Below, one piece after another: positions 1,550 to 59,194 of a DNA stretch of 64,000 nucleotides. Positions within the stretch are counted from its first letter, which is position 1. The number at the start of each line of letters is the position of its first letter. The notes under the pieces are model-generated. The model saw nothing but the letters and a program-made list of their open reading frames with translations, was not told the origin of the DNA and made no database searches. Made by a program: the position numbers and the translations under genes. The stretch comes from a virus, in IMG/VR virus record IMGVR_UViG_3300020198_001494, positions 1-64,000 of that record. The stretch is one strand, 5' to 3'.

Positions 1550-4500
1550 CTATTCCACATAAAAATCTATTCCACCATAACCAGAAGTAATAGATACATG
1601 AAAATTAGCGGATTTATTAATATCTTTAATAGATACTGCCCTAACTATACCAGACTTACCGCTGTTTACCCCCTCAATTAAATTTCCTTGAATTCTAACG
1701 AGACTTTCATTACTTTCATTACTTTTATCAAAAAAAACAAAAGAGTTTATTGTACCGTCAGAATAATAAACATTAGCCCCCAATTCTAAAGTGGCACGAG
1801 AATCTAATGATATAGGATTTGTCGTAGAGCTTTCAATAGATGGCTTAACTTTTATTACCTTAGCTGACCCTTTCGGCCATATTTTACAGACTAAATCGTA
1901 TTTTTTACTTAGATCATCTTTTACAAATATTTCTATATTGACTGTTTCAGGATCAGTAGAAATAGTCATACTTTCATCTATAGTAATATTACCCCCAGAT
2001 ATTTTTATCTTATTTTTATCATATCTATAATCATAGTCTATATTATATTCACTGCCTATAAGCTCTATTAAATTAGTACCAGTTGAATTATTTGAGTATA
2101 AAGCTTTAATATCTATAGGAAGTGTAGAACCAATATCTATCTCTAAGGTATTACTAACTATAAACTCTGATGTAACTGATATAGATTTTGGCCATAACTT
2201 AATATTTACAGGAACATCTAAGTATGGATTTGTTTTACCTGTTTGAGTCAATTTTATATTAGTAACTGTATTTTTAAATTTTGCTCTAAACACAATGTTT
2301 CTTTTAGTAGGATCAACGGAATTGTACTCAGGGCCGGATAGAAATTCTTCTGAAACACTTGCTGCCACATCACCAGACATACTACCATCACTCAAATAAG
2401 TTTTAGCTACTATATCAAATTGTTCATTTGTTTTTGTTACAACGTACTTCGGATTTTGTTCTATATCTATCATATAAGCCTTTTTAGTGTTTCTAGGTAA
2501 TATTTTAACGTTATATACACCGAAAACATTTGTGTCCTTTTCATAAAAGAACCACAATTTTGCTGTATCATCCTCTACATTTATATCTACAATAATATCC
2601 TTTTTTAGATCACTAATTTTACTGCCCATAACAATTACATTATTATCAGCTTTTACTGAACATTTAACTCCTGACATACCTGGGACATATCCAAGATCTT
2701 CCTCTACTGGGAGTACCTTATAGTCATCACTGAGTTTTATTCTAGTCATTTTAACTTTATTAGAGTCATTTTTAAACCCATAAATTATATTATTACCATA
2801 ATATACAAAACTATCTACTTCTATATACTTAACAGTATTGTTAACGCTATATGACATTTTTATAAAACTATCTGTATTATTATCCAATTCGGATATATTT
2901 TTATAAATAGCTAAAACATTTTTACCATTTACTTGTACTAATCCAAACAAATCATCGTTGTTACTTTTAACCACATTAGTTATTGCTTTATCAGTTTTCC
3001 CAAATGGAAATACTGCTTGTGTGTTTATACTAAATAAACAAAACCTGGTATTATTAGTACCATTTACATAAGATAATAATAAAGTCTGACTATCATAATT
3101 AGATATAGATACAATTTTATTAAACTCTACTTGAGGATATAAAACTGAAACTTTATTAATAGAATTAAATTTTATATCAAATATATCAATTTTACTATCA
3201 TCTTTAGTTATCATGTAAAATTTATTTGAGTTAAAAACACCCTCTAAATATTTTCTACCATCTGTGGGAACAAATGGAATTTTATAAAAATCTACAATAC
3301 TAAAATAAATTTCAGGATTGCTAGTATCTGTAAAACTAAATAAACCTATACCTGAGGCATATACTGTAGTAGAAAATTTTTGGTCTGAAATATTTGTACC
3401 AGGATTACTTGTTTCTAAATTAAAACAAAAATCTGGCTCTATCTTAAATTTACCACCCAAATCTGTAACTTTAACATTAGATGATGATTTAATAGTATCA
3501 TTTTTTATTAAATCAGCTAAAGCTACTATCACCTTCCCATAATAATCTCTCACTACAGGTATTAAATCTGAAAAAGTACTTCCTACATCCAATTCCAACA
3601 ATCTTGGATCAAAGCTTATATATTTTGGTTCTTCATTCTGAACTAATACCTCAGCTTTCGCAGTAGACGATGGAATACGTACACTAGCACTAGCGGTTAT
3701 CTTAGCTTCTCCAATACCTAAAGGTATTACAAAAACACCAGTACTACGGTCTATACTTATAGTAGGAGTAGTATTCTCCGACATAGTAGGAGATGTGCTT
3801 GACCATGTGACAGGACCGGCTATCCCCCTTCCATTACGTATCACTGCCCCATCACTATAAGCCACTGTAGCAACAAGTTCAGTTAGGCGTTTAGTTACTA
3901 GATCTATAATACCAGATCCAGTATCATCATCTATAAAAACATAAAATACAGAAAGACCAGATGTCACCCCAACTGGAAAAATAGCCTTAACAGAATTATC
4001 GTGCTTAGCGGCATAAGTTATTTCGGTATCTGATGAACTTAAACTTATTCCTTTTATTTTTCCAGTATTATCTGCCAATAAATTAATACTAGATATATTT
4101 AACACATCCACGGCGGAATCTATATAATCTGAATCAGTGCTTAAAAATTTAGAATAAAAAACCTCAAAGGTAGCGTATAAAGTAACTCCTGGATTTATTT
4201 CTCTTCTTTCAAAATTTCCTGTGTCTAGTTTAGGTATACCCCTAATTTTTAGATCCTTAACAAAAATTATATCAAAATTAATTATACAAGCAGTAGCCTC
4301 AGGGTAATCCTTAGAATATATAATAGATTTTACTCTCTTACTTATAAGAGGATTTGGGGCCGATACATTATTTATTTTAAACCAATCCTTTCCCAAAACT
4401 GTATCTTCAGTAGTTTTATCAAAGGACAAATATTTTGGAATTTTAGTTTCTTTATAGGAATAAGAAACATTTATAGCATCAGAGGAATTTATCCCAATAG

Positions 4501-7500
4501 ATGTATTTTTATCTTTTGATAAAGTTATAATGCTCCCGTCAATTGATAAACCAGCTAAGACATAATCTTTTTCTTTAGTAGTATTAGTTACTTTATTTAT
4601 ATTAAGTCCTTCTAATGTTGAAATTCTATCTAATTTCAATTTATATAAATTAACGTCAAAAACTTTAGCTGTTTCAATTTTAGGGGGTTTTCTTTCAGTA
4701 CTACCTGCATCAGATGTTGTTATATCTTTACTATCTTCATCAACGTATATTATCTCTATTTTACTAAAATCAGCTACAGTATCAAAACTCCCGTTTGATT
4801 TTTGAATGCTAAGCGATGGTTTATACTTATCTTTTTGCCTTAACGTTACTTTATCATCAATAGACGTAACCTGAAATGGTACTATATTAGGAGTTGTACT
4901 TATTATAATTGTTATAGTCTTATCTAAAATTAACGATTTAGCGGTTATTGTGCTTGTGCCCTCTTTTATGCCTAACATGGTACCGCTAGAATCTATAGTA
5001 ACAACTGTCGTATCTGAACTTGTAAATGTAATATACTCTCTATCTTGAATTCTATCTATATTATCTTCATAGCTTCCATAATCATGATATATACTAATTG
5101 GTACGTTTACCCCAATAGTAAGCGGTATTGAATTACTGTTATATCTACTTACTAGATCGGTACCGTCAGGATAAGTAACAATCTGTAAAGTAGTTTGTAT
5201 ATTTTCTGGTAAAACTTTTGCTGTTAATGTTGCCTTACCTTTTAATGCAGTTGCAGATATTTTGTTTTTACTAGTAATATCCTGTATAATAATTTGTGAA
5301 TTATTTGGATTTGTAATAATAAAATCTACTCCAATTCCTGTATCTACTGATGAATCATCATTATAGAATATAGTAGGTATATATGTTACTGCCGTATTTG
5401 TTTTTTGGAAACCTACTAATTTCTCTACCCTTTGCTCAATTGGTGTACTAGAATCACCGGATAAGAATTTTATACTTTCAATTATTTTAGATATCCCTTC
5501 TAAATCTAATCTAGAAGTAAAATGTCTAAACCCATCCACATCTATTATAGCTTTTATAAAAAATTTCTCTGTTTTTAAAACTTTAAGTTTAAAGGTATGT
5601 GGAGTGTCCTCAACAACTACAGCTACTTCTGGATCAGATGTTTCAAATTTTATATTAGGGTATAAATCTTTAGAAATTTCCCCATGTTTAGTCAGTACTT
5701 TAATATTTATATCTACCTTATAATTTCCAGTAGGATCTGCTACAATTCTTTGTCTTGCTATACTAATTTCTATCCCAGTATACACAACATTAACTGTTAC
5801 AGGTAATGTTTTAGTTATATTATCCATATTCAAAGTGAGAGTAACCGGAGTATCTTTTAGGGATGGCAATAAAGAATAGATATTAGGGCCTTGCCCGACA
5901 GCCATAGTATCATTACTACTAGACCACAAACCACCGGCTAAACTAGTAACAGCAGTACTATCTACAGCATTTATAATTATCTTTCTTATAATATTATTTA
6001 CTGAATCAGAAACGTAAAGTGAACTACCGTCTTTAGAAATTACAATACCACGAGGGTAAGAAAACTTAGACTCCTCTTTCTTACCATTTATAAACCCATT
6101 TCCATTACCAGCAAAATTAGATAATACATTACTAGAGGACATTTTTCTAATAACACAATTATTAGTATCAGATATATAAAGTATACCAGTGCTTGATATC
6201 ACTAAATCATTTATGTTATAAAAACTGTAATTATCAGGTATCTCAAATAAATTACCGCCAAATGTATATGTCAAAATAGTTACATTTCCACTAACATCTA
6301 TTTTCTTTATATTATTACTTCCGGCATCAGCTACATACATCAAATCAGAATTACTTATAGTTAATCCCACTGGATACATAAACTTAGCAGATGATCCAAC
6401 GCCTGCTAAATTACCTGGCTCTGAAGATCCTGCAAAATCTGATATATTAGATACAGAACCAGACAGAAAAGATATTTTTCTTATCTTATAGTTATAGCTA
6501 TCTGCTACATATAAATTACCTAAGCTATCAAATGCTAAACCTCTTGGGTTATTAAAAATACCTTTAGGATCTAAACTATCAATTTGAGTAGTTACTATAT
6601 TACTAGAACCCTGTAATCCATTTCCTAAAATAGTAGTTACGTTACCATTAATATCTATTTCTCTTATTGCGTGATTTCCTGTGTCTGATACGTAAATTTT
6701 ATTATCTTTTACTACTACTCCTTCTGGCTTATTAAATTCTGCTAATATACTATTACCGTCTTTTAATCCTGCTGTACCGCTTCCTGCAACAGTAGTTACT
6801 AAACCAGCTACAGTTATCTTTCTTATGACATTATTATCTGTATCACAAACAATTAAATTACCATCAACATCAATTGCTAAGCCAGTAGGGTTTTTAAAAA
6901 TAGCTTTTATTCCAGATGATGAATCTAAATACCCCTCATTTTTTAGAGGATTGTGAGTACCATCCGTATACCACACCTCACTAAACCAAATATCACTAGA
7001 TAAAGACTCTGTAGACGATTTTTCATTTAAAGTTAAGTAAACGGGAAGTTTAACTCCTGAAATTTCTTTAAAAGTGGGTGGAAGTATGTCTACGTATAAA
7101 ATTAAAACCTTGGAAGTATCTTGTTTTGAGGATACAACCAATCTTGTTGGGCTCTCTGTAACTTGTGTGCCACATATTACAGCGCCGTCTCCTAAAATTT
7201 CTACTAAGGGGGGGTTATTTGGATCAGTTACTAAAAACCTTTTGTCCCTTGTACCGTCTGTATACACAACATCTACATCAAGCGGTATATATTTATCTTG
7301 GCTTATTTTAATTTTATCATATTGAGAAGACCCAATAGTAACCTTATCAGTAACATTCAATACTTCTAAATGATCTACCGGAACTAATATACTAAAATCT
7401 AAATATTTTATAACACTTGAATTTTTCTTAGATCTAATAAAAATGGGTACTAACTGTGGCTTATTAAATGTAACAGAAAAATTATTTATAGTAGATTTTG

Positions 7501-10500
7501 GTAAAGACCCCGTATTTACAATCTCTCCTATAGTAAAATCAGCTATTACCGTTGATGTTGTACTGTTACTAATCCACAATTTGGGATTTAATGTAACAGT
7601 ATCAGAAGGATTACCGCCACCGGCTATATGTAATTTTTCTTTTTCAATATCTATTACAGAACGTCCTTTAGTAACATTTACAGTCATAAAAAACGGTAAA
7701 GAGCTTCCTTTAGGCATTATGGTAACTGGAAATTCTAAATAAGTGTCTGGATCTACTCTTGCTGCTATTTTTACTTTAGCTTTAGATTTTGATACGTCTA
7801 CTGAAAACAAAGTTTTCTTGTCACTAGATAAAATATACAACATCTTATCAGCGGTATATGTATAATAATTGTTTTTAGCTAAATTTCCCAATTTTAGTTT
7901 ATTTTTAACTAAAGAGTACTTAGATGAGTCTACACTATCAATAGCTAATTCAAACCCTGACGTTATTATAACAGTGTTACTATTAGTAAGTTTAGCTAAG
8001 TTCCTTCCCGCAGGTTTATTTGGATCTAACCAATAAGAGGCCCCATCCTGGGTAACCCCACAGATACCTCCATCCCCGGATCTATTCATGACGATCCATG
8101 GCTTCTGGTTAGTATTATTAAACGTTAATAAATTAGCTAACGCATAGTCTAACGTATTATCTGCTACCTTTACTTTACTCTTAAGAGAAATTCTAGATAG
8201 TCCTGTATCTCTTGATATATACAAATAATTATCAAAGAACACACCAGAAAGTATTCTACCATTAACCGTCCCCCACTTAACGAAACTTTCCTGATCATTT
8301 AACTTATAAAGCTCTGTTTTAGCGTTAGTAGAATTTCCTATATGTTTATAAAGGATTACTTTATCTGAACTAATACCAATTATACCACTGATACTTAAGG
8401 GAGCATTTTTAAATAATTTAAAATTATTTTCTGTAATCCTCATTACATCTGTTATAATAGTGCCTATATAGCCGTAAACTCCACCGTCCTGATCTGCTGA
8501 TATTCCTTGTAGCTCAAAAGCACTTATAAACATCTTAGACATAGTGGCTGCAATTTTAGCTATAATTGTTTTATTAGTGCCTGTAGTATCTAAAATTAAC
8601 ATGTCTTCAGATACATTACTAAACACTACATCAGTATTTTTAGTGCCATCTTTAAATAAAACTTCACTATTAATAGTAAAAGTAGAGTCTACATCAAGGT
8701 AAAGATCTTGTTCTAGTGGATTCCATGGTATATCTTTAACTGATATACTAAGAGGGCCATCTACCTCAACAGGAATATATTTTACTAAATCCTGATTATA
8801 TTTAGCGATAACCTTTAAATCTACTATACCAGACCTGCCGGGTATTAATAGTCCATTAGATCCAACACTAACTATTCTAGTATCACCGGAAACCCAAGAT
8901 ACATTACTATCATCCCCAACGACATTTGAAGATCTAGTACCATCAGTATTAATTACAACTAGCCTAATATCAAATTTCTTACTTGATAAAGTACCATATT
9001 TTATTGGTAAACTATCTAAATTTTGTAGTACTGATAATGAAACTGGAATAGGGTTAGATAAACTTAATGTCAATATAACTTTAACTTTTGATATTATATT
9101 TGTATCATCCCAAGATGTAGCAGTTATCTCTGCTTCTGGAACGCTGTTCTCTGGATAATCAAGAACATTAAAATTTGCTGTAACATCAACACTTCCATCA
9201 CTGTTTACACTTATAGGAAACTTTTCCGGATCACTAGATACCCAATATACTTTTGAATCAGATTGACCAATAGTATACGTAACGGATGCGTGTAATTTTA
9301 TTGTAGACCAACCTGTGGTTTGGTTATATACAATGGGTATACCTGATGCAACACGTTCCGATATAGTAATAGAAACTGGCGCTCTTATTGGTATTACTTT
9401 TACATTCAAATCATAAGTTATAATGTTACCTATGGTATTTTTAGACCTAAATGTTATTTTAGTATCACCGACACTTTTTGCAGTTATTCTTTGATTTGTA
9501 AAATCTATAATCTGGCTATTAGATCCTAAAGTATAGTCAAAATCAGTGTTTAGCCCATCATCATTATATTTAACAAATACTGAAATATCAACAATATCAC
9601 CATTAGTAATAGTTATTTTATCACTAATAACTCTATTTTCTGGCTCTATAACAAAACTTACTGGAAGTGGATTAGTGTCTACTAATAAAGTAGATACTAA
9701 ATTATTTGAATTTAACGGCATTAATGATACAAAACTATACCCCCTCTTTTTTGCCGTTATTACATTACCAGCTATTCCTATAACATAATCACTGTAGCCA
9801 ATAACATCTACCCTACTATCTGTTTGACTATTACTATATAATACAGTAGGGCTAATATCTACTGTACTACCAACCTGCATACTAATATTCTTATTAGGAA
9901 TATTTAAACTTACTGGAACAGCAGAAAATTCAGGCAAAACTTCTGCTGTTAAGTATAAATAAGTAGAATTATCTTTACTGTGTTGTATTTTAAGTATAAC
10001 TTTATTGTTTAAAGGATCCCAATTAGCTATTTTTTCTACTACAGCATCTAGTAAGCTAACTGGTAAAGATAGCGGTTTAACTGTTTCTACGCCACGGGGC
10101 GGTGTTGGAGGATCACTTGTTTCAGGGCTTTGTATTGGTGGGGTAGGAATCACAACAGACCCAATAGAACTTTCAACATTTTCACTGTTTGGTACAGATT
10201 TAAGAATCATGTATATATCTGGTACAGAAAATGCATTATATATATAATATCCATCAGATATATTACCTAAATTTTTAATAACCTTAGATCCGTTTGTGCC
10301 AAAATCTATTCTATTTGCTTTTACTTTTCCACTATTGTTTTTAAACAAATAGAGACTTCCTTCATAATATACTGCTGCATCTGCTGAAATATTACTATCA
10401 ATCTCTGTAGAAACTCTGGATTTGTATTCAAACACTTTTCCAGATTGATTTATCAAATATAGTGTATTAGATGAACCAATAGTCATATATTTAACTGAAT

Positions 10501-11692
10501 GGTTAACGGTAACATCAGATCTAATACTGCCACTTAATTGAAACTCATGTGGACTAAGTATAAAAATATTTGATGTAACACCCCTAGTAGAAAGATATAA
10601 AATATTATCTTTTCCAATAGTCATCCCGGTTAAACGATCTGACAGTATTTTAATATTTACCACACCTATTGAAAGATCATCTGGGTATATATAAAATATT
10701 CTTGTTGTTTCCCCAACCATACTAGAAAAATAGATCCTATCTGGAGGTAAAGAAGCCATGAACTGTATTTGATTAGAATGTTCGTATAATAAATCTAATC
10801 CACCTGACAATGAATATCTGTAAATATTTTTACCTACAGAAACATACAGTTGGCCGTTTATATCTACAATAGAGGTAACGTTTTCTGGTAAATTGTGTGG
10901 ATGATAAACTATATTAGAAGCCGATATAGCGTTTATCGTATTATTTGTAACAGATATAAGATTAGTATCATTAGATATAACACTAACTTTATCTGTGTAA
11001 TCGTCTGTCCATTTAGCTGTAGCATCTAAAAATAAAGAAGATCCAACATCTATTTTTATATTATTACCAGAATCATGATCAAAAGATAAAGTATCATTTT
11101 CTGATTTTTTTATTTTAACACTAATACTTTCTGGTCCTATTACTCTAACCTTATATGTCCAAGATAGATCTGGCAAATTTTTATATTTTACAGCTATCTC
11201 TGATAACCCGTGATGTAAACCAGAAATTTTCTTTACTAATCTATTTAAACTCTGATCTATTAAATCTTCCCCTTTTACTAACCAGCCATCTATATCAAAT
11301 GTAAAATTAGAATACTCACTGTCAAAATGACCATCACTATAAATAATTACCGGATTAAGTATAATATTACTATCATTAACCAAATTTACAGTTTTTGTTT
11401 CAAATGGTCCAAAATTCTCTAACTTTATGTAGGAGGGAAATCTACTAGAACTTACAACTTTTACATTTATATCATCTAAAACATCGCCACTAACTGAACT
11501 TTTAGCTGATATAATTACCCTACCTGGCTCTTTAATGGTTAGTAAACCGCTGCTGTCAACTGATACAACATCAGAATTACTACTAATCCAGTTTAATGTC
11601 TCGGACCCTCCTGGTACAAAGTCAGTTTGTAATTGAAATGTAAATGAACTAGATCTGTTATTTAAAATTAAGGATTGTGGGTAAATTTTCAC
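1550..11692 (-). CDS. giant multidomain Ig-like / NHL-propeller virion protein
   Basis: This 3380-residue protein starts at GTG (MKIYPQS) and is the largest in the window. It is built from many BIG2-like Ig modules with recurring signatures such as 'GLLTIKEPGRVIISAKS', 'YTDGT' and 'SSDTTVVTIDSSGTM'. An NHL-repeat beta-propeller lies at about residues 1590-1920, shown by repeated units like NPTGLAIDVDGNLIVCD, VYVSD/LYVADS and NNVIRKI. Three further insertions, at about 255-510, 1055-1300 and 2810-3010, have the short-strand pattern of propeller domains but lack a clear family signature. No signal peptide or membrane segment was seen, which fits a cytoplasmically assembled phage part. It follows the hub and spike genes, so it is probably a long tail fibre or surface adhesin that binds carbohydrate or protein. 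That role is inference; the Ig and NHL folds are read from the sequence. Confidence 0.75.
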   Translation of the reverse strand: MKIYPQSLILNNRSSSFTFQLQTDFVPGGSETLNWISSNSDVVSVDSSGLLTIKEPGRVIISAKSSVSGDVLDDINVKVVSSSRFPSYIKLENFGPFETKTVNLVNDSNIILNPVIIYSDGHFDSEYSNFTFDIDGWLVKGEDLIDQSLNRLVKKISGLHHGLSEIAVKYKNLPDLSWTYKVRVIGPESISVKIKKSENDTLSFDHDSGNNIKIDVGSSLFLDATAKWTDDYTDKVSVISNDTNLISVTNNTINAISASNIVYHPHNLPENVTSIVDINGQLYVSVGKNIYRYSLSGGLDLLYEHSNQIQFMASLPPDRIYFSSMVGETTRIFYIYPDDLSIGVVNIKILSDRLTGMTIGKDNILYLSTRGVTSNIFILSPHEFQLSGSIRSDVTVNHSVKYMTIGSSNTLYLINQSGKVFEYKSRVSTEIDSNISADAAVYYEGSLYLFKNNSGKVKANRIDFGTNGSKVIKNLGNISDGYYIYNAFSVPDIYMILKSVPNSENVESSIGSVVIPTPPIQSPETSDPPTPPRGVETVKPLSLPVSLLDAVVEKIANWDPLNNKVILKIQHSKDNSTYLYLTAEVLPEFSAVPVSLNIPNKNISMQVGSTVDISPTVLYSNSQTDSRVDVIGYSDYVIGIAGNVITAKKRGYSFVSLMPLNSNNLVSTLLVDTNPLPVSFVIEPENRVISDKITITNGDIVDISVFVKYNDDGLNTDFDYTLGSNSQIIDFTNQRITAKSVGDTKITFRSKNTIGNIITYDLNVKVIPIRAPVSITISERVASGIPIVYNQTTGWSTIKLHASVTYTIGQSDSKVYWVSSDPEKFPISVNSDGSVDVTANFNVLDYPENSVPEAEITATSWDDTNIISKVKVILTLSLSNPIPVSLSVLQNLDSLPIKYGTLSSKKFDIRLVVINTDGTRSSNVVGDDSNVSWVSGDTRIVSVGSNGLLIPGRSGIVDLKVIAKYNQDLVKYIPVEVDGPLSISVKDIPWNPLEQDLYLDVDSTFTINSEVLFKDGTKNTDVVFSNVSEDMLILDTTGTNKTIIAKIAATMSKMFISAFELQGISADQDGGVYGYIGTIITDVMRITENNFKLFKNAPLSISGIIGISSDKVILYKHIGNSTNAKTELYKLNDQESFVKWGTVNGRILSGVFFDNYLYISRDTGLSRISLKSKVKVADNTLDYALANLLTFNNTNQKPWIVMNRSGDGGICGVTQDGASYWLDPNKPAGRNLAKLTNSNTVIITSGFELAIDSVDSSKYSLVKNKLKLGNLAKNNYYTYTADKMLYILSSDKKTLFSVDVSKSKAKVKIAARVDPDTYLEFPVTIMPKGSSLPFFMTVNVTKGRSVIDIEKEKLHIAGGGNPSDTVTLNPKLWISNSTTSTVIADFTIGEIVNTGSLPKSTINNFSVTFNKPQLVPIFIRSKKNSSVIKYLDFSILVPVDHLEVLNVTDKVTIGSSQYDKIKISQDKYIPLDVDVVYTDGTRDKRFLVTDPNNPPLVEILGDGAVICGTQVTESPTRLVVSSKQDTSKVLILYVDILPPTFKEISGVKLPVYLTLNEKSSTESLSSDIWFSEVWYTDGTHNPLKNEGYLDSSSGIKAIFKNPTGLAIDVDGNLIVCDTDNNVIRKITVAGLVTTVAGSGTAGLKDGNSILAEFNKPEGVVVKDNKIYVSDTGNHAIREIDINGNVTTILGNGLQGSSNIVTTQIDSLDPKGIFNNPRGLAFDSLGNLYVADSYNYKIRKISFLSGSVSNISDFAGSSEPGNLAGVGSSAKFMYPVGLTISNSDLMYVADAGSNNIKKIDVSGNVTILTYTFGGNLFEIPDNYSFYNINDLVISSTGILYISDTNNCVIRKMSSSNVLSNFAGNGNGFINGKKEESKFSYPRGIVISKDGSSLYVSDSVNNIIRKIIINAVDSTAVTSLAGGLWSSSNDTMAVGQGPNIYSLLPSLKDTPVTLTLNMDNITKTLPVTVNVVYTGIEISIARQRIVADPTGNYKVDINIKVLTKHGEISKDLYPNIKFETSDPEVAVVVEDTPHTFKLKVLKTEKFFIKAIIDVDGFRHFTSRLDLEGISKIIESIKFLSGDSSTPIEQRVEKLVGFQKTNTAVTYIPTIFYNDDSSVDTGIGVDFIITNPNNSQIIIQDITSKNKISATALKGKATLTAKVLPENIQTTLQIVTYPDGTDLVSRYNSNSIPLTIGVNVPISIYHDYGSYEDNIDRIQDREYITFTSSDTTVVTIDSSGTMLGIKEGTSTITAKSLILDKTITIIISTTPNIVPFQVTSIDDKVTLRQKDKYKPSLSIQKSNGSFDTVADFSKIEIIYVDEDSKDITTSDAGSTERKPPKIETAKVFDVNLYKLKLDRISTLEGLNINKVTNTTKEKDYVLAGLSIDGSIITLSKDKNTSIGINSSDAINVSYSYKETKIPKYLSFDKTTEDTVLGKDWFKINNVSAPNPLISKRVKSIIYSKDYPEATACIINFDIIFVKDLKIRGIPKLDTGNFERREINPGVTLYATFEVFYSKFLSTDSDYIDSAVDVLNISSINLLADNTGKIKGISLSSSDTEITYAAKHDNSVKAIFPVGVTSGLSVFYVFIDDDTGSGIIDLVTKRLTELVATVAYSDGAVIRNGRGIAGPVTWSSTSPTMSENTTPTISIDRSTGVFVIPLGIGEAKITASASVRIPSSTAKAEVLVQNEEPKYISFDPRLLELDVGSTFSDLIPVVRDYYGKVIVALADLIKNDTIKSSSNVKVTDLGGKFKIEPDFCFNLETSNPGTNISDQKFSTTVYASGIGLFSFTDTSNPEIYFSIVDFYKIPFVPTDGRKYLEGVFNSNKFYMITKDDSKIDIFDIKFNSINKVSVLYPQVEFNKIVSISNYDSQTLLLSYVNGTNNTRFCLFSINTQAVFPFGKTDKAITNVVKSNNDDLFGLVQVNGKNVLAIYKNISELDNNTDSFIKMSYSVNNTVKYIEVDSFVYYGNNIIYGFKNDSNKVKMTRIKLSDDYKVLPVEEDLGYVPGMSGVKCSVKADNNVIVMGSKISDLKKDIIVDINVEDDTAKLWFFYEKDTNVFGVYNVKILPRNTKKAYMIDIEQNPKYVVTKTNEQFDIVAKTYLSDGSMSGDVAASVSEEFLSGPEYNSVDPTKRNIVFRAKFKNTVTNIKLTQTGKTNPYLDVPVNIKLWPKSISVTSEFIVSNTLEIDIGSTLPIDIKALYSNNSTGTNLIELIGSEYNIDYDYRYDKNKIKISGGNITIDESMTISTDPETVNIEIFVKDDLSKKYDLVCKIWPKGSAKVIKVKPSIESSTTNPISLDSRATLELGANVYYSDGTINSFVFFDKSNESNESLVRIQGNLIEGVNSGKSGIVRAVSIKDINKSANFHVSITSGYGGIDFYVE

Positions 11693-11698
11693 AAAAGA

Positions 11699-11869
11699 CT
11701 ATTCCGATTTTTGTTCGTTTTCCTGTGCTATAGCTAAATAATCTCTACAAATCTTTAACTTCTCTTCTTCTCTTTCTAGAACTGATTCAAAATAAAATAG
11801 AGCGTTTTCTAAAATACCTTTAGTTTTTTCTAAAGCATCTGAAATATCTAATTTTTCCCAATTATCCAT
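11699..11869 (-). CDS. small acidic helical protein (56 aa)
   Basis: A 57-codon minus-strand ORF runs from ATG 11869 to TAG 11699-11701. The product is MDNWEKLDISDALEKTKGIL followed by 36 more residues. It is Glu/Lys-rich and predicted helical throughout, with one Cys. A GAGG ribosome-binding site sits four bases before the ATG (GAGG-ATCC-ATG). It ends 6 bases before the giant Ig/NHL gene starts. An in-frame ATG lies 15 bases upstream but has no Shine-Dalgarno sequence. Size and position between spike and fibre would suit a small chaperone or connector for the giant protein, but nothing in the sequence proves this. Confidence 0.65.
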   Translation of the reverse strand: MDNWEKLDISDALEKTKGILENALFYFESVLEREEEKLKICRDYLAIAQENEQKSE

Positions 11870-11941: not shown

Positions 11942-14900
11942 TTATACGCTAGGAACTCCTGGTAATTTACCCATACTAATGACCTTAACTACACCAGATA
12001 AAAATTGCATTTTATAAAGAGGAGCCTGTGCTGGTGTACAAGGTACAGGAATTGTTGGGTAACATGGGGGAGAAACCGGGGAACTTGGGGCTGGTGTTGT
12101 TATTAAATGCGTATGATTCATTACCCAATCCAAGAATGCATCGCCCATTATCATACTTTCGGATGCATCATCACCGCCTAATTTAATACCTCCAGGACTA
12201 TTACACTTTAGTACTATTTTACCTAAAAGTGGGGTAACCTCAAGAAGTATATTCTTAAGTGCTTTTAGCTCTACTATCATAGATTCTATTGAAGATAATT
12301 TAGCTGCTTTTAATTTAACATCGCCTAAGGTACACTCTACTTTAACTTCTTGTAACTTAGAGGTAATTTCAATAGGTCCAGTTAATGTATCTAAACTAAT
12401 TTTACCTACTTTTGTAGAGCTTTCTATATTTCCAGCACCTGTAGTATTTTTTATATTACCTGCTAAAGTAAAATTCTCTATATTACCAGCAAGTAAAACT
12501 TTATTTTCTATATTACCAGTAGTAGTCTGATTAAGGAAATCTCCTTTTAAAACAACTACATTTTCTACATTACCATTAGCAATAGTAACTGCATATGCTT
12601 GTTTATTAAGACTAGAATTTAATATTTCAGTACCTTTAAAACTTCCTACAATAGCCTTTGAAATACCCCCTATTGAGTTTTTTACATCCTGGCCGACACT
12701 AGTAACCAGATCTCTAGATACATCTACTGTTTGTTTACCGTTTACTTTACTATTAAAAGATCCATCTACAGTAGACCCAACATTACCTCTAGCAGTTACA
12801 TTATTATCACCGCCAAAGGCCATATCTAAGTCACCTTCAAAAACTCCCTGTAAGCTATGACCGGCTCCAAATCTCCCTACATGAAATTGAACCCCTCCAT
12901 CTAACTGTATCTGCATACTTCTGTTAAGTGTATCTGCGCCAATAGCTGCAACTAATCCCCCATCTAAATCTATTCCCAAACTATTACCATCACCATCTCT
13001 ACCTGATCTTAAAAATATATTACCGCAAGAATGAACATCTAGAGATGTTGCCATATCATCTGGTCTTTTAATCATTGGCAATAATGCCATAAGGTCAGCT
13101 TTTTTATCTCCCTCACTAGCATATTTCTTAGTACTTATTAATTTATCGAAAATCCTGTTAAATAGTTTTCCACCCCTTCCTTCTTTATCATTGGTTTGAA
13201 AAGTCATATCATGAAATCTATAAGTATAATCATCATCAGTATAATATGATCTGCCCGCTTTCATAACATCATTGCCTAATTTATCTACTTCCCTACCTTT
13301 GGCATCAAACCCATTTTGTATAAACTTTCTTCTCACCCCTGGGCTAGATTTTCCTATTCTTAAAGAAATACCACCATCAGTTATAGTTTCTATAGAAATA
13401 CGCTCAATAGACCCGTTACCTATACTTGTTTTTAAAGATTTACTAGTACCAACTAGTGGGTTATCTTTCCCATCTATTTGAGTTTTTCTTCTATACCTTG
13501 AGGCTTTACCATCATCACACCCAAAATGAAAGAAAGATCTCCCTATAGTAGTTACATCTAATGACTCCTCTCTAGCATAGCTTTTATCTATAACCAACCT
13601 TACTCTACCAGCAAAACTGCCATCAACACTTTTACCTATCTCTGAATCTTCCCTAGGGGGAGAAATAATAGGTATAAAATCATCTTGAAATTTAGTAGCA
13701 CCGATATGAAATCCTAAATAACCCTCTTTTGTTATATAAAACCTAGTTTGAGAATACTCAAAAGGCATCTTCCACATCTTAGCTATTGATCTAGTTCTAG
13801 TTAGTCCGGCATTGAATATAGCCTGTCTCTCGGAAGTTTCATTATTAGGAGCTACCCCTAACTCCACTAATTCTTCCTTAATATCAAGATTTATAGAATT
13901 ATCGTCATCAAATATTTTAGGTCTTAGTACTTTACCATAATTTTCTGGAAAATTATAAAAATCATATCCGACTAAAGTACCTTCAACACTTTCTATAATA
14001 TTGCCATTTCTTAAATTAAAATCTTCATTCCAAACATCATATTTTGTTCTGCCGAATCCAGTTATGTCGCTATTTATAGACAGCTTATAATCACCTAATT
14101 CTTTAACTTCTCTCCTGTGCTCAACTAATGGTCTTGACAAACTTCCTAAATTACCGCTAGGGTCACTTACTAAATAGGGATCATCTATAGAATAAATACC
14201 AGATAATGTTCTTACCCATTGATACCTACCGTCGCAATTTACTATTAATCTCTGTCTTAAATCAGGTGTTATTAAGCTTTCATCAAAATCTACCTTACCA
14301 TTTTTTTTAACTACTCTCTTTTCATAAGGGGATATACCAAAAATATCGTACCCCTCACCTTGTCTATTTAATAATCTTCCTTGTTTATCATAACTCATTT
14401 CTAAATATCTAGAAACCACCCCATCAGCCACAGATCCAGCATCAGTTTGTCTGTAGTATTGCAAGGAATTTTGTACTATTGCTTGGTCAAACGACCTTAA
14501 AGTTATCTCATTGGACCTACTACTTGATAACCTTATGTCTTCATCTACCCTAACATCACTGCCCTGAGCGCTAGCTAACATTAACTCGCCCTCATAGAGT
14601 TTTTGATAGCTTAATCTCATTTTATTTGGGACAAAATTAGAATATTGTCCCTGGGCCGTATCTGTCAGATCAAAATTTTTAGCTTTACCTATCTCTCTAG
14701 GAAGATATGCTAAAATATAAGGCTTTGGTAGTGGGTCATTACCACCAGAAAAACCCACAAAACCAATTATGACCCGTGTACCGGGTTGTGGAATGCCTCC
14801 AATTAAGGCTCTTCCAGTAAATAGTGGTAAAGTTATATCAATATTATCTGCTGGTATTTCTCCATTAGGAGTTTGATCATATTTTACTGAGCACTTTAAA

Positions 14901-15109
14901 CTTTCTATATCAACATAAATAATAGTGCCCAACATAAGTCCAAAATATTTGGACTCTTTTGTTCCTTGTGTGGTAACATTTGTTGACATTGGATTAATTG
15001 GAAAATTTCCACCAAAACCCTCTTTAATATCTTTTCTAACATCTGATTTTTGGGGTTTTGGCGGCACCGCACTAGATCTTCTGCTATTTATATCAGGTTC
15101 TCTTTTCAT
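11942..15109 (-). CDS. baseplate central spike protein (gp5/gpV-like OB fold plus beta-helix)
   Basis: This 1055-residue protein has the architecture of a membrane-puncturing spike. Residues about 55-140 form an OB-like domain with the hallmark run 'GGIPQPGTRVIIGFVGF' and 'PYILAYLPREIG', as in T4 gp5, P2 gpV and VgrG N-domains. A long middle region follows. From about residue 690 to 960 there is a repetitive Gly/Asn/Val region with units such as GNIENKVLLAGNIENFTLAG, typical of intertwined triple-stranded beta-helices. Near residue 1000 there is the His-rich 'NHTHLITTPAPSSP' element that commonly ends phage spikes before a Pro/Cys-rich tip. No lysozyme domain was found, so wall cleavage must come from other tail proteins. 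It lies directly downstream of the hub gene, 21 bases away, as expected for a hub-spike pair. A GGAG site precedes ATG 15109. Confidence 0.8.
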   Translation of the reverse strand: MKREPDINSRRSSAVPPKPQKSDVRKDIKEGFGGNFPINPMSTNVTTQGTKESKYFGLMLGTIIYVDIESLKCSVKYDQTPNGEIPADNIDITLPLFTGRALIGGIPQPGTRVIIGFVGFSGGNDPLPKPYILAYLPREIGKAKNFDLTDTAQGQYSNFVPNKMRLSYQKLYEGELMLASAQGSDVRVDEDIRLSSSRSNEITLRSFDQAIVQNSLQYYRQTDAGSVADGVVSRYLEMSYDKQGRLLNRQGEGYDIFGISPYEKRVVKKNGKVDFDESLITPDLRQRLIVNCDGRYQWVRTLSGIYSIDDPYLVSDPSGNLGSLSRPLVEHRREVKELGDYKLSINSDITGFGRTKYDVWNEDFNLRNGNIIESVEGTLVGYDFYNFPENYGKVLRPKIFDDDNSINLDIKEELVELGVAPNNETSERQAIFNAGLTRTRSIAKMWKMPFEYSQTRFYITKEGYLGFHIGATKFQDDFIPIISPPREDSEIGKSVDGSFAGRVRLVIDKSYAREESLDVTTIGRSFFHFGCDDGKASRYRRKTQIDGKDNPLVGTSKSLKTSIGNGSIERISIETITDGGISLRIGKSSPGVRRKFIQNGFDAKGREVDKLGNDVMKAGRSYYTDDDYTYRFHDMTFQTNDKEGRGGKLFNRIFDKLISTKKYASEGDKKADLMALLPMIKRPDDMATSLDVHSCGNIFLRSGRDGDGNSLGIDLDGGLVAAIGADTLNRSMQIQLDGGVQFHVGRFGAGHSLQGVFEGDLDMAFGGDNNVTARGNVGSTVDGSFNSKVNGKQTVDVSRDLVTSVGQDVKNSIGGISKAIVGSFKGTEILNSSLNKQAYAVTIANGNVENVVVLKGDFLNQTTTGNIENKVLLAGNIENFTLAGNIKNTTGAGNIESSTKVGKISLDTLTGPIEITSKLQEVKVECTLGDVKLKAAKLSSIESMIVELKALKNILLEVTPLLGKIVLKCNSPGGIKLGGDDASESMIMGDAFLDWVMNHTHLITTPAPSSPVSPPCYPTIPVPCTPAQAPLYKMQFLSGVVKVISMGKLPGVPSV

Positions 15110-15130: not shown

Positions 15131-17737
15131 TTAAGAAGTATGTGGATATTTACATTTAGAGCTAACTTTTCCAGATGGGAACATTTTCTCTATATTAACA
15201 CCTACATTAGAGGGACTAACTGATAATATATATGTAGCAGCAGTTGGTAGTGGGTTCAGAACATTAAAATCACCAACGAATCTTCCAGCTTCGCCAAAAT
15301 CTTCCCCAGACATAATAAAAGAAGCCTTGGACTTTCCTAAAAGGATCTCTTTATCTAACTCTTCCATTTTTTTTCTTGATATAGAAAAAAGATTACCTGT
15401 TTTTTCTAAAGAATCTATTTTTTTATTAATATCAATTCCCCCCTCACTTTTTTTAATATTATCATTAACCCACTTTTTATTATCAAAATATAAACCCCTC
15501 CCATAAGGGAATCCGCCAATTAATTCATAACCTTTTTCATCTGATACTGGTATGCCAACAGTTGGATCAGCATAAAAAACACCGGGTTTTGATACTAATT
15601 TAAAAGTTGGGGATATAGTAACATTTACGTTACCAACTTGAGTTATATATCTTCTTATTATATCATTAAGACCTAAACCAGATAAACTCATTCCAGATTT
15701 GCCCTCCAGGTCTTTTAAGTAACTGCCCTTACCTTTCAGACGACTGGCGAACCTATTAATAACTTCTGTTTGTATCTTATCACCTGTATATTTTTTAACT
15801 TTTTTTCCATCTGTTGTAGCATCAGTTTCACTTAAAACCTCATCTAATATAGGGCCTAAATCACTTGACAACTTTTTTCCTAATTCATGATAAGATCCAG
15901 GACGGTAGGTCTCCGTAATAAGGTACCCACCTTTTACTGGATTGATTTTGGCACTAGATTTAAACTGCTCTGAAAAATCTAAAACAACATTAGGATAAAC
16001 CATAAAATTATTTTTATCTTCCTTTATACTTATATCAATAAAATTCCCATTAATAGAACCCTCGGTAACTATATTAGCACCAGATGTATAAGATCCATTT
16101 AATAATGTCTGTTTACTGCTACCGTTATCGTTTACAAAAGCGAAAGATGGTGGTACATATACTCTCCTAGCGCCTTCAATCGTAAGCTGTGTAGTAAAAG
16201 TTCCGCCAAAAGTAAAACTATGGCTAACCCCAGTAACATAGAAGAAAGTGTACATAGACTGGACGTAAATTGGGTAACCTAATCGTATTTCTGGTCTACC
16301 AGCTATTTCTATTGTACCACTAAATCTTTTTGAATTTAATAATGACAAGTGCTGTACCGCATATATATAACACATAACGTCATTAAATAAATAATCTCTA
16401 GATATTGGCTGAGCACTCTTTATGCCATAAGTTTTAGCCAAATTCCAATCTATGTAAAAATTATATGGATTAAGACCCCCTGACCCAGACTCAAAACCAG
16501 GGTAAGGTGATCCAGTAACGTCTACTCTAGTGTAAATCTCATTAATGTTCTCTGTTACATTCCAGTTTATTATATCTATATCATTAATGTGTGATATTGG
16601 ATAATTAGATCTTGAATCCATATTATAAAACGGGGGTTTAAATACTATCTCCCCTGTAGTATCCATGTAAAATTCCCAGCCTATTTTATCTTTAATCATA
16701 TTAGCTATTGCTAAATTATTATCTTTAACGGTTTCCATAGCGTTAGAAGTAGAAGTAAATATAGTATGAAACGGTAAAACTGCCGCAAACAATTCGTCAT
16801 CTAAAGGATAATATGGTAATTTACCTGAATTATCTATATTAGTTACCCTTTTAAGGTTAGCTATTGGTTCTGTTTCAATCGATTTGCCAGTTTGTTGGGT
16901 ATCAAAATTTCCAGACTTAATATCAGTAACTGTCTTAGCTGCTTGGGCTTCATTTATACCAAAAATACGAACACTTGCATCTATCGCACTAAATCTATTC
17001 TTCCAGTAGGATATCGTATCTTTACCAGAAGTTTTATAATCTTCTTTTATCAAATCAAATCTATCTGCTTTAGTAATTAATGTATTTAGTGGGCCTGAAA
17101 ACTGACTCATAGTTGCTTTAGATAAAGCGATTATAATCTCAGTGGGTGAATGATTAGCATATTTATTTGCAACTGCTGATTGTTTTATGTTTTTACCATC
17201 TTGGGCAAGTATACTTTGTGCTGATGAATGAGTTTCATTTTCAGTTATCTCCCACCACTTCAGCATGTCGGCACATTCAATATGAAGCGTATGAGATCCA
17301 TCACTATAACTATATCCTACTGATGTTGTAAGGCCCCAAAAACATCTATAGTATAAAGGCTCTTTCTTATCACTTAAAAATCTTCCCTTAATGAAAATTT
17401 CTACCTCTGACATAGTTCTTATTTTAGAATGACCATTATCTATAAAAACATTAGCACTGTGCCTCGGTATCGACATCGTGAAAGAGGCTGTACCGGGGAC
17501 GCTATTTACATTTAATGATATTTGAATTTCAGTTATTAAGTTATTAATATCTGCTGCCGCATCACAAAAATGACATATTGGAACGGTATTATTCTTATTT
17601 AGCATTACAACTGCATCTGGAGCAAGCATTATAACTGGTCTAGATCTTATTGGATACTTTTTAGCTAATGTATTTATATCAACAATTGCTTCTTTAGCTA
17701 ATTTATGAAATGCATCCCCATCACCAAAAATTGGCAT
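15131..17737 (-). CDS. baseplate hub protein (gp27 / gpD-like)
   Basis: This 868-residue protein probably forms the ring linking the tube to the spike. The N-terminal third contains a hub-like signature: 'VPGTASFTMSIPRHSANV', then 'CFWGLTTSVGYSYSDG' and 'TLHIECADMLKWWEI', a pattern shared by T4 gp27, P2 gpD and XkdQ-type hubs. A later beta-rich section (about residues 400-540) holds 'GRPEIRLGYPIYVQSM' and 'YVTGVSHSFTFGGTFTTQL', typical of the second hub barrel. The C-terminal 300 residues are less conserved and contain 'ETYRPGSYHELGKKL'. No wall-cleaving motif is evident there. An early CxxC (CHFC) is present. Order (tail-tip proteins, hub, spike) is typical of contractile tails, and family assignment rests on motif recall. 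Confidence 0.75.
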   Translation of the reverse strand: MPIFGDGDAFHKLAKEAIVDINTLAKKYPIRSRPVIMLAPDAVVMLNKNNTVPICHFCDAAADINNLITEIQISLNVNSVPGTASFTMSIPRHSANVFIDNGHSKIRTMSEVEIFIKGRFLSDKKEPLYYRCFWGLTTSVGYSYSDGSHTLHIECADMLKWWEITENETHSSAQSILAQDGKNIKQSAVANKYANHSPTEIIIALSKATMSQFSGPLNTLITKADRFDLIKEDYKTSGKDTISYWKNRFSAIDASVRIFGINEAQAAKTVTDIKSGNFDTQQTGKSIETEPIANLKRVTNIDNSGKLPYYPLDDELFAAVLPFHTIFTSTSNAMETVKDNNLAIANMIKDKIGWEFYMDTTGEIVFKPPFYNMDSRSNYPISHINDIDIINWNVTENINEIYTRVDVTGSPYPGFESGSGGLNPYNFYIDWNLAKTYGIKSAQPISRDYLFNDVMCYIYAVQHLSLLNSKRFSGTIEIAGRPEIRLGYPIYVQSMYTFFYVTGVSHSFTFGGTFTTQLTIEGARRVYVPPSFAFVNDNGSSKQTLLNGSYTSGANIVTEGSINGNFIDISIKEDKNNFMVYPNVVLDFSEQFKSSAKINPVKGGYLITETYRPGSYHELGKKLSSDLGPILDEVLSETDATTDGKKVKKYTGDKIQTEVINRFASRLKGKGSYLKDLEGKSGMSLSGLGLNDIIRRYITQVGNVNVTISPTFKLVSKPGVFYADPTVGIPVSDEKGYELIGGFPYGRGLYFDNKKWVNDNIKKSEGGIDINKKIDSLEKTGNLFSISRKKMEELDKEILLGKSKASFIMSGEDFGEAGRFVGDFNVLNPLPTAATYILSVSPSNVGVNIEKMFPSGKVSSKCKYPHTS

Positions 17738-22889: not shown

Positions 22890-22904
22890 GTATTACTTTC
22901 CGTT

Positions 22905-30036: not shown

Positions 30037-30050
30037 TTATATTTTTCTAC

Positions 30051-37026: not shown

Positions 37027-39834
37027 TTAAGCTCTTACGCTAAGAGTCAATCTAATCCACGAAACACTGAATACTGGTTTATACTTTGCTACAGCTTGAA
37101 TTATTGTTGGATCTAGTGGATCTACATGAACTTCTACACCAGAATAATCTGATAATATAGAGGAGGATTTTAGGAACTCTAATGTACCTTTTAATGATGA
37201 CTCCATATCTCCAATCAAACTGGGAAGATTCTTCTTACCGATAAACGACTCAAGAGATGCTCTAGAGTCTTGCTGAACTTTATCAATGATCAACGTAACA
37301 TACGGAGTTCTGGTAAGAACGTTGCTCATATCTGATGTAAACCATTGTCTTACTCTTATAGTAGGCTTTAGATCTTCAAGAACTGTAATACCTGCTATAG
37401 CAACTTGATTAGCTTCAACAGCATCTAGAACTCTAGAAAGTCTCTTGAATCCAACAAGCTCTTTTCTGGTCATGTCTGTAGCTACATCATATTGTGGTGA
37501 AACCAACTTACCTGCCATAGCAGCAGCTAACATTGATCCATCCACTAAATACTCATTCTCTACACCCATTTCATCAACAATACCGAGAATTACTCCTTCC
37601 GGATAAAGTAATGTCATCCTGCTAGTGGATAATCCAGGTGCGAGTTGCTGAGCCTTAACTGGTGTAGTACCGATTGGGAAACCTAGTACAGCAACCCTCT
37701 CCGCTTGATACCGCTCTGAGGACATTCTTTCACAATGAGTCTTTAAGTAAGCCTGAACATCACCGGCTGTAGTTAGTGGAACAATAATATCAGCGTTATA
37801 AAGATTTTGAATCTTCTTCTCTAACTCTGTAATAGCATTAATATATGCTGTAGAATTAGCATCGGATTTACCAAACTCTCTTTTAATTTGTTTAATAGCA
37901 ACGGCTTGAGCACCGTTCAAGAAAGCTAAATGAGCGGCTAATGACACTTTATTATCAATAGATATCGTGCCGTATTCAGCTTCGATAGCTTTTTCTTTAG
38001 TCCAAACCTTGGCGCTGTAATCAGTTTTATCCCACTTATAAGAAGTATAGTAAAACTCACCAATAGAGGGCTCAAGGCCAGATTTATTATATGTTTTTAC
38101 TATAGCCGTATCATCAACACCGACATCTTTAGTATTAAGGACATAAAGTTTAATACCTGATATATCTAGAACCGCACCAGGATCAGTTGTATACTCATAT
38201 TCTGAAGTAACTACAAATACTATCTTATCGTCAGCAGCAAAAGTAAGATTTGCATCAGCATCCGGCCATACGGTAAATCTAACCCCAGTTTTAGGATCTA
38301 CGTAGGTACGACCAACCTTACCTTTATTTGCATTATTAGTGGTAACAGAACCAGAACCAGTATTTACATTAGAAGATACTGTAAACTCTGTAGAACTTGT
38401 AAAAGTTAAGGTAACTTTTTCAGTTATTGAATACCCCATAACAGTTTGAAGATCCGAAACACCACCAGGCCATAATTTAGCCTCAGCATAATCGGTATCG
38501 GCAATACTAGTTTCACCGCCAGAACTAGTTTTAGGACTAACTATAGCATGTGCAGGTTTTCCGCTTGTTAAGCTAGATAACTTATATTTACCGGTACCTG
38601 ACGCTCCAGCTACAGTGCATTTAACTGTATAAGTTTCATCCACTAACATGTTATACCAGTAAGTGACTTCAACTACGGCTGTTTTAGCTACAGCAGCCGA
38701 TAAAATGATATTCTTGTTAGCATGATCCACATAGCTAACTTTACTTAAATTTCCGTCTACCCATACAGATACTTTAGAGTAGTCTTTTGTTGGTCTGCCT
38801 AAGCCAGAACCATCAGTCGGTGTATAAGATACCTTCCATGTCATAGTTGTTGCATCATTTACACTCGCTAATACAGCAGTAGCCAACTCTTTATGCATAT
38901 GGTTATCTATAAGGGTGGATAACACCTGAGTATCATCAAAATACTCGGCTTTCGGAGTATGATCACCAAATTTAACTAAATAGGAATGACCCCAATTAAT
39001 ACGATCACCCTCATTTACGTAATCGTATCCTTCAGCATAATCCATCTTACCAGGGAATTTACCCATAGATATCATAGAAGAGACACCTTTATTCGGTAGA
39101 GGATCAAAAGTATCTTGGTAGGTATTTGTCCAATAAGTAACTAAAACTGTTTTTCCATCCGCTGGAGCAGCAGCTAAAGTAATGACGCCATTAGTACCGT
39201 CAACTGAAGAAACAACTACTGCCACACCATCGACTTTTACAGTTACTTTAGAAATATCTGTAGTGGTAACTCCACCGCCTGTACCATCAACTATTCTTGG
39301 GTAAAGAACATAAAAATCTTTTCTAGTACCATTAACTTGATTCGATAGATCTTCATCAATCCTTTGAGTATCACCACGATGATAATAATAAGTAACAGTT
39401 ACGGTATCAGTAGATAGTGGTAATTGAGATAACCAGATATCACCAGTTTCCCCTACTACCTTAGCTACACCAGCAGGCTCATCATTAATCAAAACCTGAA
39501 CACTACTAATACTGTTAGACGTGACCCCCTTGCCTGCACCGTCCACAATTGGAAAATTTCTCACTCGGATACGGTTTAATGTACCGTCATTATCAACAAG
39601 CTTATTTAGCTCATTTACGAATCTACCGGACATATCCTCTTTATTAGAAAGAGTATCAACTGAAGCTGAAGAACCGCGAACCATCTCAAGGTTCAATTTT
39701 GTATAAGTTTCAGAACCAACACCTATAATTACTGGAATTCTCGCACCAGCAGCACCGGAAGCCCCATCGGCAGCTACTATAGTATTGGTATAAACACCTG
39801 GCGGAACATATGAAGTGAAAGGACCGATACCCAT
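37027..39834 (-). CDS. contractile tail sheath protein with inserted beta-sandwich repeats
   Basis: This 935-residue sheath is long compared with T4 gp18 (659). The N-terminus 'TSYVPPGVYTNTIVAADG' and the C-terminal about 245 residues ('KRLSRVLDAVEANQVAIAG', 'RQWFTSDMSNVLTRTPYV', 'FLKSSSILSDYSGVEVHVDP') are characteristic of phage sheath domains. Between them lie three copies of a small module with the pattern V-x-V-x-V-DG...V...VDG-x-NG-x-I-x-L...V-x-V-TY-x-Y, at about residues 95-165, 170-240 and 325-400. One example is VTVKVDGVAVVVSSVDG. These would decorate the sheath surface. An AGGAG site precedes ATG 39834, and a long AT-rich leader lies upstream. It should contract to drive the tube through the envelope. 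Confidence 0.9.
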   Translation of the reverse strand: MGIGPFTSYVPPGVYTNTIVAADGASGAAGARIPVIIGVGSETYTKLNLEMVRGSSASVDTLSNKEDMSGRFVNELNKLVDNDGTLNRIRVRNFPIVDGAGKGVTSNSISSVQVLINDEPAGVAKVVGETGDIWLSQLPLSTDTVTVTYYYHRGDTQRIDEDLSNQVNGTRKDFYVLYPRIVDGTGGGVTTTDISKVTVKVDGVAVVVSSVDGTNGVITLAAAPADGKTVLVTYWTNTYQDTFDPLPNKGVSSMISMGKFPGKMDYAEGYDYVNEGDRINWGHSYLVKFGDHTPKAEYFDDTQVLSTLIDNHMHKELATAVLASVNDATTMTWKVSYTPTDGSGLGRPTKDYSKVSVWVDGNLSKVSYVDHANKNIILSAAVAKTAVVEVTYWYNMLVDETYTVKCTVAGASGTGKYKLSSLTSGKPAHAIVSPKTSSGGETSIADTDYAEAKLWPGGVSDLQTVMGYSITEKVTLTFTSSTEFTVSSNVNTGSGSVTTNNANKGKVGRTYVDPKTGVRFTVWPDADANLTFAADDKIVFVVTSEYEYTTDPGAVLDISGIKLYVLNTKDVGVDDTAIVKTYNKSGLEPSIGEFYYTSYKWDKTDYSAKVWTKEKAIEAEYGTISIDNKVSLAAHLAFLNGAQAVAIKQIKREFGKSDANSTAYINAITELEKKIQNLYNADIIVPLTTAGDVQAYLKTHCERMSSERYQAERVAVLGFPIGTTPVKAQQLAPGLSTSRMTLLYPEGVILGIVDEMGVENEYLVDGSMLAAAMAGKLVSPQYDVATDMTRKELVGFKRLSRVLDAVEANQVAIAGITVLEDLKPTIRVRQWFTSDMSNVLTRTPYVTLIIDKVQQDSRASLESFIGKKNLPSLIGDMESSLKGTLEFLKSSSILSDYSGVEVHVDPLDPTIIQAVAKYKPVFSVSWIRLTLSVRA

Positions 39835-59180: not shown

Positions 59181-59194
59181 CTTCATTTACCTCC

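Follow-up and report, generated by a model that had tools for sequence, protein, structure and literature searches.

Gene content of the locus

The window, the whole stretch of DNA analysed here, covers the initial 64 kb of an IMG/VR record of 95,201 bases, which is possibly a fragment. An intact reading frame of 3380 amino acids occupies positions 1550-11692 of its minus strand (Table 1). This frame was already listed in the initial annotation and holds up on inspection: it has no internal stop codon and begins with a GTG codon two codons downstream of a stop. One close relative was found, IMGVR_UViG_3300020578_000017 (116,449 bases; hereafter G001); it and the window are collinear over the interval between the connector gene at 50-51 kb and the giant gene. 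The homologous frame of G001 likewise starts with GTG, the N-termini of both proteins align, and the frame runs off the contig end after at least 1792 amino acids.

The giant gene is located downstream of the genes for a spike-like and a hub-like protein, all of which are encoded on the minus strand, and genes with weak matches to tail-tube initiators lie to its right. The small ORF between the spike-like and the giant gene is perhaps a candidate for a small chaperone or connector. The head-protein gene is found at 58311-59186, about 46 kb from the giant gene, and its product is 47.8% identical to the major head protein of Tunturi_5, a jumbo myovirus with a genome of 309 kb that infects an acidobacterium (PMC11924767). 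The sheath has homologues in Tunturi_5 and in the 485-kb record LR745208. Judged by its gene content, the window most likely derives from a jumbo-type contractile-tailed phage; tRNA genes were not found in it.

Two further groups of genes in the window deserve mention. Four successive very large genes (1179-1450 amino acids) occupy 19176-34403, with tape-measure, glucosaminidase, M15 and M23 peptidase matches among them; they resemble duplicated tape-measure-type genes, since two of them at a time match a single G001 gene. The neighbouring ORFs 50118-51029 and 51042-51368 both match one head-tail connector gene of G001 and Tunturi_5 and represent a partial duplicate.

Table 1. Features of the giant gene and of the tail genes in the window; residue numbers refer to the giant protein.
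Feature	Position	Strand	Evidence
Giant Ig-plus-propeller protein gene	1550..11692	-	3380 aa, GTG start; N-terminus aligns with G001 homologue
N-terminal Ig (Big_2) module, residues 1-80	11453..11692	-	Pfam Big_2 at 11492-11689; held-out 0/200 shuffles
N half of Ig module split by insert 1, residues 208-256	10925..11071	-	Ig model states 15-66, E 1.5e-7
Insert 1, very likely beta-propeller, residues 258-515	10148..10921	-	Self-repeat; AF2 model; Foldseek, VIA-align
Uninterrupted Ig modules, residues 592-980	8753..9919	-	Ig model, leave-one-out
N half of Ig module split by insert 2, residues 997-1048	8549..8704	-	Ig model states 19-71, E 1e-7
Insert 2, probably beta-propeller, residues 1050-1302	7787..8545	-	Self-repeat 12/400; VIA-align on weak model
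C half of Ig module split by insert 2, residues 1300-1330	7703..7795	-	Joining to N half completes module
NHL beta-propeller, six blades by reading, residues 1597-1930	5903..6904	-	Pfam, PDB sequence matches
Ig modules and diverged beta region, residues 1972-2690	3623..5779	-	Pfam, Ig model, leave-one-out
Insert 4, possible propeller, residues 2755-3020	2633..3430	-	Self-repeat 8/400
C-terminal Ig modules, residues 3070-3371	1580..2485	-	Modules m21, m22 0/200; m20 2/200
56-aa ORF between spike-like gene and giant gene	11699..11869	-	59-aa ORF at equivalent place in G001
Baseplate spike / hub-lysozyme-like protein	11942..15109	-	phrog_430 E 5.9e-4; 34.6% to G001
Tail hub-like protein ('tail protein with lysin activity')	15131..17737	-	phrog_1015 E 2e-5; LR745208 E 1e-38
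Tail sheath, marker of contractile tail	37027..39834	-	53.5% identity to G001; Tunturi_5 and LR745208 homologues

Ig modules and the NHL propeller

Pfam searches identified Big_2 (PF02368) in two stretches of the giant protein, with an E-value of 4.2e-9 for the whole protein, and two places were also over the cut-off in the genome search. An Ig model was built from modules chosen by eye, 16 in the giant protein and eight in its G001 homologue; the boundaries of modules, blades and inserts were all set in this way. When each module was held out in turn, 8 of the 16 window modules scored better than all of 200 shuffled sequences, five were equalled by one or two shuffles, and three were unsupported (9, 31 and 64 of 200 shuffles as good). 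Among the eight G001 modules, three were clear, three were equalled by one or two of 200 shuffles and two lacked support (61 and 91 of 200). The test is conservative, as a module that failed it, at residues 2180-2267, is itself a Pfam match to Big_2. Residues 2270-2480, approximately, fit the Ig model poorly. The remainder of the giant protein outside the propeller and the inserts described below appears to consist mostly of diverged Ig (BIG2-like) modules.

These modules surround an NHL beta-propeller, as the initial annotation had proposed for residues 1590-1920 or so, and the Pfam matches to NHL and Big_2 confirm both the domain and its place among Ig modules. NHL (PF01436) is matched in four stretches of the protein (E 2.1e-29), three places individually exceed the Pfam cut-off, and the domain also matches TEN_NHL (6.5e-14). 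The best phmmer match in the PDB is the NHL domain of SOQ1 (SUPPRESSOR OF QUENCHING 1; 7djl, E 2.2e-31), and further matches are a teneurin-like protein (1.1e-29) and NHLRC2 (5e-22); the NCBIfam matches are of the ScyF/ScyE type and lie under their cut-offs. On the strength of these profile and sequence matches, it is certain that the giant protein holds an NHL propeller at about residues 1597-1930. The blades were counted by reading (starts at residues 1601, 1655, 1715, 1773, 1826 and 1879), and a six-bladed closure is predicted from this count.

A search of the giant protein for a trimeric fibre motif, an enzyme or a known receptor-binding domain found none of these, which counts against the adsorption reading given below. 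The GC content of the inserts ranges from 0.249 to 0.324 and that of the whole gene is 0.305, so that the inserts bear no mark of recent import.

Three additional inserts in the Ig chain

Three more stretches, at about residues 258-515, 1050-1302 and 2755-3020, fall outside the Ig model; they are referred to as inserts 1, 2 and 4. To detect internal repeats, each region was aligned to itself at lags of 30 to 65 residues and compared with 400 shuffles. The NHL region, used as positive control, reached a score of 273 (0/400 shuffles as good). Insert 1 revealed a repeat of about 45 residues with a score of 119, which none of the 400 shuffles equalled. The scores of insert 2 (63; 12/400) and insert 4 (86; 8/400) are indecisive, because one of 14 Ig control tiles, G001 residues 1316-1573, reached 2/400; the other 13 were equalled by at least 20 of 400 shuffles. 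The three corresponding regions of G001 gave no self-repeat (301/400, 227/400 and 131/400).

Sequence-based searches with inserts 1, 2 and 4 returned nothing in Pfam at E<=10 and no PDB match at E<=0.01, be it by profile or by sequence; a single row had an E-value of 0.072. Annotation therefore overlooks such domains: Pfam detected one of the four inserts of the giant protein. A model of the NHL blade did not score above shuffles on inserts 1, 2 and 4 or on the first two G001 inserts, and blade models carried from one region to another gave no consistent signal, some Ig tiles scoring equal to the inserts.

An AlphaFold2 model of residues 255-515, made together with the G001 homologue, had a pLDDT of 47.8 and a pTM of 0.45. 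The 50 best PDB rows obtained with it in Foldseek start at an E-value of 4e-5, with low query TM-scores of 0.16 to 0.36. By their titles, 46 of these 50 rows are proteins that we take to be beta-propellers, presumably including virginiamycin B lyase, the designed proteins Cake, Scone and Bagel, tectonin, PknD and WD40 proteins; the other four belong to entries 9l35 and 9m58, which were left unclassed. The best VIA-align rows for the same model had Z-scores of 9.8 to 7.9, of which values near 8 can be common according to a warning of the tool, and are presumably propellers as well, including an NHL domain (8suc) and gluconolactonase types. A second AlphaFold2 model, covering residues 187-1345 with the G001 homologue, reached a pLDDT of 29.8 and is unusable as a structure. 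Foldseek found no match to it at E<=0.001; the VIA-align rows (Z 9.4 to 7.5) cover model residues 872-1052, corresponding to residues 1058-1238 of the protein within insert 2, and we assume from their names that most of them are propellers.

It would also be conceivable that the NHL domain is the sole propeller and that the three remaining inserts are additional beta domains with a different fold. The missing Pfam and PDB sequence matches, the weakness of both structure models and the absence of repeats in the first two G001 inserts speak for this view; the 45-residue repeat of insert 1 and the structural rows for inserts 1 and 2, nearly all of which point to propellers in these models, speak against it, and we judge it improbable. 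Based on the repeats and the models, insert 1 is very likely and insert 2 probably a propeller, and for insert 4 the self-repeat is only suggestive. The three additional propeller-like regions proposed at the outset are hence unequally borne out, with good support for the first, moderate support for the second and a marginal signal for the third. A plain Ig fold was not predicted for inserts 1 and 2, in models that are themselves weak.

Insertion points relative to the Ig modules

The sequences flanking the inserts indicate that at least one of them interrupts an Ig module. The N-terminal flanks of inserts 1 and 2 end at states 66 and 71 of the Ig model, so that both inserts seem to enter the module at about the same point. 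With held-out flanks, the G001 counterpart of the N-terminal flank of insert 1 covers Ig states 13-75 (E 2e-9), and the C-terminal flank of insert 2 starts at state 72 (E 0.0027). When the two flanks of insert 2 were joined, the Ig score rose from 20.9 to 31.7 bits, which was reached by none of 200 shuffled and none of 200 insert-derived decoys. By this measure, insert 2 splits an Ig module. Joining the NHL flanks increased the score from 4.7 to 7.6 bits (0/200 shuffles and 2/200 insert-derived decoys as good), which weakly indicates that the NHL domain also splits a module. The rise for insert 1, from 20.5 to 22.6 bits, was not significant (21/200 and 16/200), and the flank matches point to the N half only of the module that it would split. 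No rise was seen for insert 4 (120/200 and 114/200); the joined flanks of the first G001 insert gave a lower score (113/200 and 161/200), and those of the second a slight rise (12/200 and 4/200).

A far-reaching interpretation would be that one Ig loop serves as a standard socket and that four different six-bladed heads have been spliced into the same loop of one chain. We regard this idea as tentative and rather doubtful. If it were true, one polypeptide would allow the phage to bind several receptors, and heads could be swapped without breaking the rod.

Comparison with the G001 homologue

The giant protein and its G001 homologue share 26% identity in residues 2-322 (E 1.2e-9 in a pairwise comparison), and piecewise alignments, on which the comparison is based, give 22-28% identity; an end-to-end MAFFT alignment was forced and was set aside. 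The homologue has non-Ig regions at the first three insert places. No propeller was seen in the whole G001 homologue with Pfam at E<=1; its third region scored 16.2 against a model of the NHL blade for which only the window sequence had been used (0/200 shuffles as good). On this sequence evidence, the first three insert places are common to the two diverged proteins.

Between the window and G001, the sheath is 54%, the hub 38% and the giant protein about 22-28% identical. The faster divergence of the giant protein would fit a host-facing part and proves nothing by itself. It bears on the possibility that the giant protein is a structural scaffold of the baseplate or a whisker, whose propellers dock other virion proteins (baseplate, capsid or fibres) instead of receptors. 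Propellers often are protein-docking platforms, and the giant gene directly follows the hub and spike-like genes, as would be expected for a scaffold. The propellers of the T7 and SU10 nozzles are a precedent, for which host binding is not claimed in the accessible text of the source (PMC10607447). However, the giant protein diverges faster than sheath and hub, as host-facing parts do, and NHL was over the cut-off in none of the hub- or spike-sharing records described below, which indicates that no conserved partner needs this domain. We therefore consider a scaffold unlikely, yet deserving of some weight.

Occurrence in other phages

The search for related loci used the best 80 of 438 relatives. 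NHL and Big_2 were searched in 50 of 116 loci that share the hub or the spike-like gene, and NHL also in 14 of 31 loci that share the sheath; many of these records are fragments. NHL was over the Pfam cut-off in none of the three records G001, LR745208 and Tunturi_5, none of the 50 hub- or spike-sharing phage records and none of the 14 sheath-sharing records, which amounts to 0 of 67 related records. Two of the 50 hub- or spike-sharing records had one 48-base NHL match below the cut-off, in a frame of 54 amino acids, and Big_2 was over the cut-off in none of the 50 and below it in two. Because the NHL domain is absent from the other hub-sharing phages searched, it does not seem to be a core baseplate part.

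A tblastn search with the NHL part in 50,697 phage records yielded two records at E<=1e-5 and five at E<=0.1, all of them unannotated faecal scaffolds. The two scaffolds examined, MT835956.1 and MT837514.1, encode TIG-NHL proteins and are filed as 'Bacteriophage sp.'; MT835956.1 also contains SusC/SusD-like genes, and both look like bacterial DNA. Within the range of these searches, the view that NHL domains are unusual in phages was supported.

Relatives of the giant protein were not found in viral_contigs with the N-terminal alignment, nor did searches with the single sequence yield any, and residues 1-2231, compared with 10 of the 31 sheath-sharing loci and a MAG, gave a single match, to the MAG (E 0.017). 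The negative results of this protein search of genomes carry little weight: the G001 homologue, recovered by blastp between small sets (E 3.2e-7), escaped it.

Giant ORFs are located beside the hub in other phages, too; the idea that they are homologues was rejected. A phmmer search with the giant protein found none of 64 such ORFs, and a search with the G001 protein found only itself; phmmer also misses the pair of giant protein and G001 homologue. Some of these ORFs form a distinct family (at least 1200 amino acids, mostly cut by the end of the locus) a few kb downstream of the hub in related phages, represented by L061:16309-21537 and 27 other loci. No Pfam family was detected in its 28 members, and the family profile matches nothing in the window or its relatives.

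Comparison with known systems

Propellers and Ig domains both are already known from phage tails, and what appears to be rare is their arrangement. The T7 and SU10 nozzles and the K1F endosialidase contain propellers in phage tails (PMC10607447). The same source describes a putative capsid protein of phage phAss-1 (1666 amino acids), a structural protein that combines Ig-like domains with a beta-propeller recognised by structure prediction (PMC10607447). In phAss-1, one C-terminal propeller region follows the Ig part, whereas the giant protein has several inserts along its Ig chain, one of them NHL, and is encoded beside tail-tip genes. The receptor-binding protein of S. aureus phage 80alpha forms a five-bladed propeller platform at the baseplate, and thus provides a case of a baseplate propeller acting as receptor-binding domain, a role that is inferred for the giant protein; the 80alpha protein is a trimer that has a coiled-coil stem, a single propeller and tower domains but no Ig chain (PMC7048315). 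The TIG-NHL proteins of the faecal scaffolds combine an Ig-like domain and an NHL propeller in one polypeptide, but they have 450-593 amino acids, and the Ig domain precedes the propeller instead of surrounding it.

Tunturi_5, which shares sheath, hub and capsid homology with the window, also has giant Ig-repeat genes near the hub, gp246 and gp245 (PP885688.1 184663-190572 and 181296-184616). Their Ig domains are of the He_PIG type, and a propeller was not found. The label 'regulator of chromosome condensation' made both proteins a candidate propeller case, which was rejected: only He_PIG was over the cut-off, two families were below it, and propeller hits were absent.

Compared with these systems, the new point is the presence of several propellers along one Ig chain, the first three at conserved places; one insert is an NHL domain, and at least one splits an Ig module. 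An architecture with several propellers along an Ig chain was not found in a literature search, which is not proof of absence.

A possible role in adsorption

The reading we lean towards, with somewhat more confidence than doubt, is that a long, mostly Ig chain at the baseplate displays propellers as binding heads for adsorption. We infer the position of the protein in the virion from gene order and its binding from domain type, and the shape and length of the chain and its targets are to be taken in the same sense. The chain would be attached to the baseplate of a contractile-tailed jumbo-type phage, with three or four beta-propellers, one of them NHL, spliced into Ig modules that would serve as rods and spacers. 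The propellers might project sideways from this chain and attach at several sites to glycans or proteins of the cell surface, and many weak contacts could together hold the virion on the cell. An Ig module is about 4 nm long, and about 20 modules would give an estimated length of the order of 80 nm if the chain is straight.

An Ig chain could also act as a Hoc-type decoration of the capsid or tail, which weakly sticks to mucus, biofilm or particles and has no specific role in adsorption. Decoration proteins with Ig domains are common in phages, and Ig proteins of gut phages adhere to epithelia, as stated in two reports (PMC11821841 and PMC13370021, respectively). The position of the giant gene among tail-tip genes, far from the head-protein gene, argues against a decoration, to which we assign little likelihood.

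The receptor-binding propellers described in phages are mostly carried by a short trimeric protein. If the adsorption reading is correct, a chain of Ig links with several spliced-in propellers would offer a further route to a multi-head adhesin, and such an adhesin would help to explain the very large proteins of jumbo phages.

Two minor observations concern records that share the sheath. The 4.6-kb contig QNDG01000207.1, which is binned in a MAG of candidate division KSB1, encodes a sheath that is 39% identical over its length; this could point to a host or result from a binning error. In LR745208, helicase genes (locus L006, 3816-15867; DnaB-like, SNF2-type and UvrD-type) contain intein or LAGLIDADG matches.
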